This document shows positions 57,250-58,659 of a stretch of 64,000 nt of DNA, piece after piece. The stretch covers positions 849,288-913,287 of the forward strand of contig CP097974.1 of assembly GCA_023703675.1 (NCBI GenBank), read 5' to 3'. Position numbers and translations under genes: made by a program. Numbering within the stretch: the first letter of the stretch is position 1; each line of letters starts with the position of its first letter. This DNA comes from SAR86 cluster bacterium. GTDB lineage: Bacteria; Pseudomonadota; Gammaproteobacteria; Magnimaribacterales; AG-339-G14. The notes beneath the pieces were generated by a model. It ran no database searches and had not been told where the DNA came from. It saw only the letters and a program-made list of their open reading frames with translations.

Positions 57250-57810
57250 TTACTTTTTATTCACTACAACCATGGCAGGTCTTACAACTCTCTCGTTAAA
57301 TTTGAATCCTTTTTGAAAAACCTCTAAGACAATGTTTGGTTTTTCTTTGTCGTCATCGCTAACAGATAAAGCTTCATGTTCTTTTGGATCGAATTCTTCA
57401 CCTTTCGGGTCAATCACTGAGATTCCATTTTTTTCAAGGGCTGAGATAATTTCCCTGACGATAAGAGATATGCCTTCAGCAGGAACAGTTTTGGCTTCTA
57501 TGTCTTGATGTTCTAAAGTTCTAAAAAGGTTATCTATTGAAGGAATTAGATCCTTAACGAGATTTTCATTTCCATACAGGCGAGCTTTTGTAACTTCATT
57601 TTGAGAAATTCTGCGTAAATTTTGAATTTCTGCTTGATATCTTAAAAGTTGTTCCTTTAATTCTTCAATTTTTGGATCCTCTGTTGATGATTCCTCAGAT
57701 GATTCACTCGAATTTTCATCAATATTTGATTCTTGAGAATTTTCTTCTTGAAGAGCTTCCTCATGTTCTATTTTTTCTTTAGCTTGGTCTTCTGTATCTT
57801 TTTTATTCAT
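57250..57810 (-). CDS. grpE: Nucleotide exchange factor GrpE
   Basis: The protein begins with an acidic, E- and S-rich region (about residues 1-45), then a long coiled coil and the conserved C-terminal beta domain: KDLIPSIDNLFRTLEH, EKNGISVIDPKGEEFDP and FNERVVRPAMVVVNK. It releases ADP from DnaK. The ATG at 57810 gives 186 residues and overlaps fur by eight bases; a TTG two codons upstream is the alternative. The recN gene found between fur and grpE in Pseudomonas is absent. Confidence 0.96.
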   Translation of the reverse strand: MNKKDTEDQAKEKIEHEEALQEENSQESNIDENSSESSEESSTEDPKIEELKEQLLRYQAEIQNLRRISQNEVTKARLYGNENLVKDLIPSIDNLFRTLEHQDIEAKTVPAEGISLIVREIISALEKNGISVIDPKGEEFDPKEHEALSVSDDDKEKPNIVLEVFQKGFKFNERVVRPAMVVVNKK

Positions 57811-58213
57811 CAGCAATAGGTTCTACATACAAAACTAATCTATGATCAACTATCTTATAACCTCTCTCTTCGGCCAATTTTTCTTGCTGTTCTTCAATAA
57901 TTTCATTGGTAAATTCTATGACTTTACCAGTTTTGAGACAGACCATATGATCGTGATGATCGTTAGGAGTCAGCTCATATACGGAGTGGCCGTTTTCGAA
58001 ATTCTGTTTCATCAAAATGCCTGCTGATTCAAACTGAGTTAGCACTCGATAAACAGTTGCTAGGCCGACTTCGTCGCCTGCTTCAAATAACTTTTTATAA
58101 ACTTCATCTGCGCTTAAATGTTTTGTTTCAGATTCTTCAAAAATTTCTAAGATCCTGATTCTAGGCAAAGTTACTTTTAGCCCAGCCTCTCTTAAGTTTT
58201 TATCTTCAGCCAT
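57803..58213 (-). CDS. fur: Ferric uptake regulator Fur
   Basis: The 136-residue protein has the winged-helix DNA-binding domain (GLKVTLPRIRILEIF, GLATVYRVLTQFE) and a dimerisation domain with the metal site NDHHDHMVC (H86-H89). It keeps C92 but has threonine where E. coli has the next cysteine, and lacks the C-terminal cysteine pair, as in Pseudomonas Fur. It represses iron uptake genes when Fe(II) is bound. It is divergent from bamE, as fur is from omlA in Pseudomonas. The first 83 coding bases plus 10 upstream bases are duplicated in tandem just upstream, so fur now follows a short in-frame copy of its own start. Confidence 0.97.
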   Translation of the reverse strand: MAEDKNLREAGLKVTLPRIRILEIFEESETKHLSADEVYKKLFEAGDEVGLATVYRVLTQFESAGILMKQNFENGHSVYELTPNDHHDHMVCLKTGKVIEFTNEIIEEQQEKLAEERGYKIVDHRLVLYVEPIADE

Positions 58214-58316
58214 ATTTAATTAAGATTCTTCAAAAATTTCTAAGATCCTGATTCTAGGCAAAGTTACTTTTAGCCCAGCCTCTCTTAAGTTTTTATCTTC
58301 AGCCATATTTAATTAA
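58131..58316. repeat. Perfect 93-bp tandem duplication covering the 5' end of fur
   Basis: Bases 58131-58223 and 58224-58316 are identical over all 93 positions. The unit comprises the first 83 coding bases of fur plus ten bases of leader. The identity stops at 58317, where bamE promoter sequence begins. The absence of any difference indicates a recent event or an assembly error. The unit length is a multiple of three. It pushes the original fur/bamE intergenic sequence 93 bases away from the intact fur start. Confidence 0.97.
58220..58306 (-). pseudogene. Truncated 28-codon copy of fur, a potential upstream ORF
   Basis: The outer copy of the 93-bp repeat contains an ATG at 58306 and reads the first 28 residues of Fur (MAEDKNLREAGL...EIFEES). 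It then meets TAA at 58222-58220, created at the repeat joint. The intact fur ATG lies six bases after this stop. The peptide would contain only part of the winged helix and should not bind DNA. It inherits the original leader, so ribosomes may load here and reinitiate at fur. Confidence 0.8.
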
Positions 58317-58341
58317 TAGTATAATTTAGAAAAATTTCAAG

Positions 58342-58659
58342 ATGTTTAAAAAACTTATTTTATATTTTTTAATAGCTATTTGCATTATCGCCTGTGCCAA
58401 TAGGTTTTACAGAGTTCCAATTTCACAGGGAAATATTGTTACTGACGAAATGATAGATCAGCTTGAAATAGGACTAACTTCTGCTCAAGTACAATTTATT
58501 ATGGGCTCTCCATCATTTACCAGTGTCTTTAATTCAGATCGATGGGAATATATTGGCACTTTTAGTGTTGGTGAAAATAAAATTACAAATGTTCATTATG
58601 TTTTAACTTTTGATAATGGAAAATTAAAGACTTGGAATAATTTACTTGACGAAACTTAA
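58342..58659 (+). CDS. bamE: Outer membrane protein assembly factor BamE (SmpA/OmlA)
   Basis: The 105-residue lipoprotein has a short signal peptide ending in the lipobox IIAC, with the lipidated cysteine at residue 18. The BamE domain follows (MIDQLEIGLTSAQVQFIMGSPS, WEYIGTFSVG and VHYVLTFDNGKL). BamE stabilises the BamA-BamD complex; bamA is at 44098-46419. A TATAAT lies at 58320-58325. Divergence from fur is conserved in Pseudomonas. The stop overlaps the convergent neighbour by four bases. Confidence 0.94.
   Translation: MFKKLILYFLIAICIIACANRFYRVPISQGNIVTDEMIDQLEIGLTSAQVQFIMGSPSFTSVFNSDRWEYIGTFSVGENKITNVHYVLTFDNGKLKTWNNLLDET

Follow-up and report, generated by a model that had tools for sequence, protein, structure and literature searches.

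The fur locus and its tandem repeat

In the window, a stretch of 64,000 nucleotides from the genome of a SAR86 cluster bacterium, an intact open reading frame (ORF) assigned to Fur (Pfam PF01475 (FUR), E=1.1e-43) sits between grpE and the divergent gene bamE, and its start is contained in a perfect tandem repeat (Table 1). Bases 58131-58223 and 58224-58316 of the assembly sequence were found to be the same, base for base, and TRF reported the interval 58130-58316 with a period of 93, 2.0 copies, 100% matches, and zero indels. At one edge the match continues by one further base, which gives the joint 1 bp of microhomology.

Table 1. Features at the start of fur (positions are those of the window)
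Feature	Position	Strand	Description
Outer 93-nt unit	58224..58316	-	Ten leader bases, then fur bases 1-83 (codons 1-28 without their final base); upstream of intact fur
Inner 93-nt unit	58131..58223	-	Intact fur start and ten leader bases
Mini-ORF	58220..58306	-	28 codons identical to Fur 1-28, then a TAA formed at the joint
Intact fur	57803..58213	-	136 aa, complete
TATACT, putative fur -10 element	58318..58323	-	11 nt upstream of the outer ATG
bamE	58342..58659	+	Divergent from fur

The ATG of the outer unit (58306-58304, minus strand) opens a stub whose 28 codons read MAEDKNLREAGLKVTLPRIRILEIFEES, and which terminates at a TAA at 58222-58220; the six bases TTAAAT then lead from this stop to the intact fur ATG at 58213-58211. 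Because 93 is a multiple of three, the outer and inner starts lie in a common frame. Only the last ten bases of the original leader, TTAATTAAAT, were left to the intact gene, and the joint between the units reads GAAGAATC on one side and TTAATTAAATATGG on the other. At the position that matches TATACT, 11 nt before the intact ATG, the hexamer is AAGAAT, and the 5' spacer of bamE was unchanged by the duplication. A sequence-only reading of this DNA had described a perfect 93-bp duplication with a 28-residue stub, a TAA created at the joint, a six-base gap, and a ten-base leader, and this description proved correct to the base.

Within the first 464 kb read, no other tandem run reached 25 exact bases at a distance of up to 1000; this excludes a chance origin of the fur repeat, which was also the sole perfect tandem copy of such size in the 804 kb read (67% of the genome). 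When these 804 kb were scanned for runs of at least 20 bases, the other tandem runs were 22 bases at period 22 and 20 bases at period 178. The same scan recorded 41 exact bases that are directly repeated at a spacing of 678 (G000:C1:48519, L161). Sampled relatives contained few perfect tandem runs, each shorter and with a smaller period than the fur repeat; in a related SAR86 genome, a repeat of 45-base period has an exact run of 77 bases (G045, locus L152:1238). An exact search of viral contigs with the joint sequence gave no match, and searching viral contigs for Fur returned a single distant relative.

Origin, age, and integrity of the assembly

The nearest sister species (G004), whose Fur protein is identical to that of the window genome, carries fur as a single copy, with the leader ...TATACTATTAATTAAAT-ATG as here, running directly on into ...GAAGAATCTGAAACA. 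When the 28-aa stub was used as a query, it matched once in each of the other genomes of the genus (6/6) and twice in the window genome. Comparison of the fur region among close relatives had been proposed by the sequence-only reading, and it gave one copy in all six congeners and likewise at the other fur loci of the family that were examined. Across the SAR86 order, fur was matched in 169 of 203 genomes, and among the matches listed for these 169 an N-terminal mini-copy appeared in the window genome only, in a listing that stopped short of the second matches in G078 and G106; 28-residue copies in distant families may have fallen below the threshold, and copies elsewhere may thus have been missed. 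In another SAR86 genome (G033:C1:76972-77374), the fur match is split into residues 1-110 and residues 99-134, as a frameshift near the 3' end, either real or a sequencing error, would produce; the second piece looks like a C-terminal frameshift and was rejected as a mini-copy. A search of genome_contigs for fur returned SAR86 and other gammaproteobacterial loci, with SAR86 cluster genomes as the nearest named relatives. Since each of the six congeners has one copy only and the listed matches of the order include no further mini-copy, the duplication is, on sequence comparison, a derived change that is private to the window genome. With adjacent identical copies and a single-copy ancestor, the arrangement corresponds to a perfect short tandem duplication.

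The absence of differences between the units (0/93) places an upper bound of about 3.2% on copy divergence (95%, -ln 0.05/93). Compared with dS values to G004 of 0.17 for fur and 0.30 for dnaK, this bound makes the duplication clearly more recent than the G004 split; recombination between the units could also hold them identical. The earlier statement that zero differences imply a very recent event was thus borne out in that the duplication is recent relative to the G004 split, whereas "very recent" is too strong for a count that bounds divergence only at about 3.2%.

An exactly repeated segment may also be produced during assembly, when contigs or reads that overlap by 93 bases are joined unmerged, or when a chimeric amplified molecule is assembled. 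The exact identity of the units, the negligible microhomology, and the occurrence of the duplication in one genome only would agree with such an origin, and a published warning holds that, among "complete" SAR86 genomes built by pooling single-cell assemblies, some are chimeric misassemblies (PMC11582366). Against an artefact, the window genome is one contig of 1,194,046 bases, which begins with dnaA, dnaN, recF, and gyrB-like genes (named from reading of their translations), holds no N bases in the 804 kb read, and has a two-armed GC skew, with predominantly positive values over the first half of the contig and predominantly negative ones over the second, all of which is as expected of a correctly assembled chromosome. 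A second repeat of the unmerged-overlap kind was not found in these 804 kb. Colinearity with G004 is perfect; in 60.8 kb aligned to this species, the duplication is the sole indel of more than 3 bp, with the other indels being small and mostly in frame or intergenic. Identity to G004 shows no step at the joint, and a strain chimera at the joint was rejected because this identity is constant across it. We consider an assembly artefact unlikely, although it deserves to be kept in mind.

Initiation signals and the predicted effect on Fur

No Shine-Dalgarno (SD) sequence precedes the intact fur gene of the window genome, and the congener leaders displayed are likewise without one, while TATACT is kept in them at 11-12 nt upstream of the fur ATG. 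Start-signal statistics were obtained from 464 kb of the window genome (the window and L112-L131), and are rough, because starts were taken as longest-ORF starts: an SD core at -18 to -4 occurred in 18% of 309 ATG-start ORFs versus 10% at internal ATGs, and TATAAT-like hexamers were enriched just upstream of ATG starts, with a peak 6 nt before the ATG (4.9% versus 0.4% at internal ATGs). Few SD cores together with -10-like boxes near starts give a hint that leaderless or very short-leader mRNAs may be common in this organism. We infer that transcription of fur begins only a few bases upstream of its ATG; with TATACT 11 nt from the outer ATG, the 5' end should then fall almost at the mini-ORF.

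We lean, with some confidence, toward a reading in which a single recent and lineage-private 93-bp duplication placed the stub in a 5'-proximal position, so that intact fur would be translated via reinitiation or weak entry and Fur would probably be reduced. One tandem duplication, essentially without microhomology (1 bp), would have copied the fur start in one SAR86 lineage, with the Fur protein itself being left unchanged. TATACT now precedes the stub only, and the native promoter would thereby generate an mRNA in which the AUG nearest the 5' end opens a dead end of 28 codons; the stub peptide covers just the first part of the N-terminal winged-helix domain and probably has no function. Because the first AUG of this mRNA would be that of the stub and fur is without an SD sequence, ribosomes would have to arrive at the intact fur AUG either through termination-reinitiation over the six-base gap or through weak direct entry into its AU-rich start, and Fur output would probably go down by a modest factor, tied to translation of the stub.

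In E. coli reporters, SD-less reinitiation does take place but declines with spacing: expression from an SD-less coupled start was about twofold lower at a spacing of 4 nt and near background at 40 nt (PMC2268962). 5'-Terminal uAUGs of E. coli were demonstrated to bind 70S ribosomes and to alter downstream expression to varying degrees, and when 5' uORFs were blocked, the effect on downstream expression ranged from none to -93% and included some increases (PMC4965119). On the basis of these SD-less reinitiation and uORF results, a modest reduction of Fur would be the most likely outcome, and no change would also be quite possible. Against this reading, a scan of 58100-58500 for consensus promoters and terminators returned nothing, with no sigma-70 promoter reaching 9/12, and the fur box is at 11 nt from the outer ATG, whereas the -10 peak in this genome falls at 6 nt. 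RNA folding of the leader gave a z of -0.92, that is, no special structure, and a structured leader or riboswitch-like element was dropped on this value. With no special RNA structure, nothing forces coupling, and direct initiation at the inner AUG could equal the former level. The proposal of the sequence-only reading that fur translation may depend on reinitiation is supported indirectly, by the missing SD sequence and by TATACT before the stub only.

It is conceivable, though on the whole somewhat unlikely, that the duplication is neutral, with intact fur being translated as before through its AU-rich start or from a promoter in the outer unit, and with the Fur level held constant. Initiation without an SD sequence is the norm in this genome, the region around the inner start is moderately open (unpaired 0.60 versus 0.63 at the G004 start), and several E. 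coli 5' uORFs left expression of the gene behind them unaffected (PMC4965119). On direct reading, the outer unit also contains TAGAAT, a 5/6 match to TATAAT, 37 nt upstream of the inner ATG. However, no promoter passed the scan, and if the fur mRNA is near-leaderless, a shift of its AUG by ~97 nt inward would remove initiation at the 5' end.

Tandem direct repeats can collapse or expand by recombination, and the first reading of the sequence had suggested that recombination between the units would switch the level of Fur reversibly, as a form of phase variation. The 93-bp direct repeats, being perfect, are open to such events, and collapse would exactly restore the single-copy ancestral arrangement as in G004. 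However, two copies are present in one genome only and are not conserved in any congener, no three-copy or alternative state was found among the relatives' fur loci examined, and collapse is possible for any tandem duplication and does not amount to a regulatory switch. Copy-number switching of Fur therefore gained no support, and we regard it as very improbable; a literature search for short tandem duplications that act as phase switches gave nothing directly applicable. It is also doubtful, if less so, that in an organism rich in leaderless starts the near-leaderless gene of a global regulator was made reinitiation-dependent in one step by a uORF derived from its own start, in a change that a single recombination reverses and that selection on iron availability may tune.

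As a mutation the duplication is ordinary; what interest it has comes from the way it tests SD-less translation in nature. SAR86 is among the most abundant and least cultivable bacterial groups of the ocean. If real, the locus provides a clean natural experiment, in which the start of an SD-less gene has been pushed ~93 bases down the mRNA and placed after a stub. Should it be an artefact, it would show that features of this kind have to be confirmed in reads before any regulatory role is proposed for them. Either way, it says little on iron regulation across SAR86.

Relation to known systems

Short tandem duplications arise spontaneously in bacterial genes and reportedly switch, for example, the type 3 capsule gene of pneumococci. 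The SAR86 repeat resembles these duplications in being a perfect direct copy of tens to hundreds of bases that recombination can revert. The pneumococcal duplications interrupt their gene and were shown to revert, whereas the SAR86 fur gene stays intact. The locus is also similar to the 5'-terminal uAUGs and leaderless uORFs of E. coli (PMC4965119), in which an AUG near the mRNA 5' end, before the main gene, could load ribosomes; in those cases the main gene has an SD sequence, whereas SAR86 fur is without one and its transcript start is putative.

In E. coli, the uORF uof is translationally coupled to fur and is a target of RyhB (PMC11550727, PMC6191717). Coupling of the uof type has been described for E. 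coli, Shigella, Pseudomonas aeruginosa, and Vibrio cholerae; it involves rare codons that respond to iron and, in E. coli, also targeting by an sRNA. As in E. coli uof-fur, a short ORF lies directly upstream of fur in the SAR86 genome, its translation would affect Fur synthesis, and its stop is near the fur start (six bases from TAA to ATG). Unlike uof, the SAR86 stub arose by accident from the fur start and is private to one genome, being present in none of the six congeners (0/6) and in one genome among the listed matches of 169; its codons are simply fur's own. Since the stub duplicates the start of fur itself and lacks conservation, it is not a uof homologue or member; at most, it may work like uof, which would make uof its nearest functional analogue.
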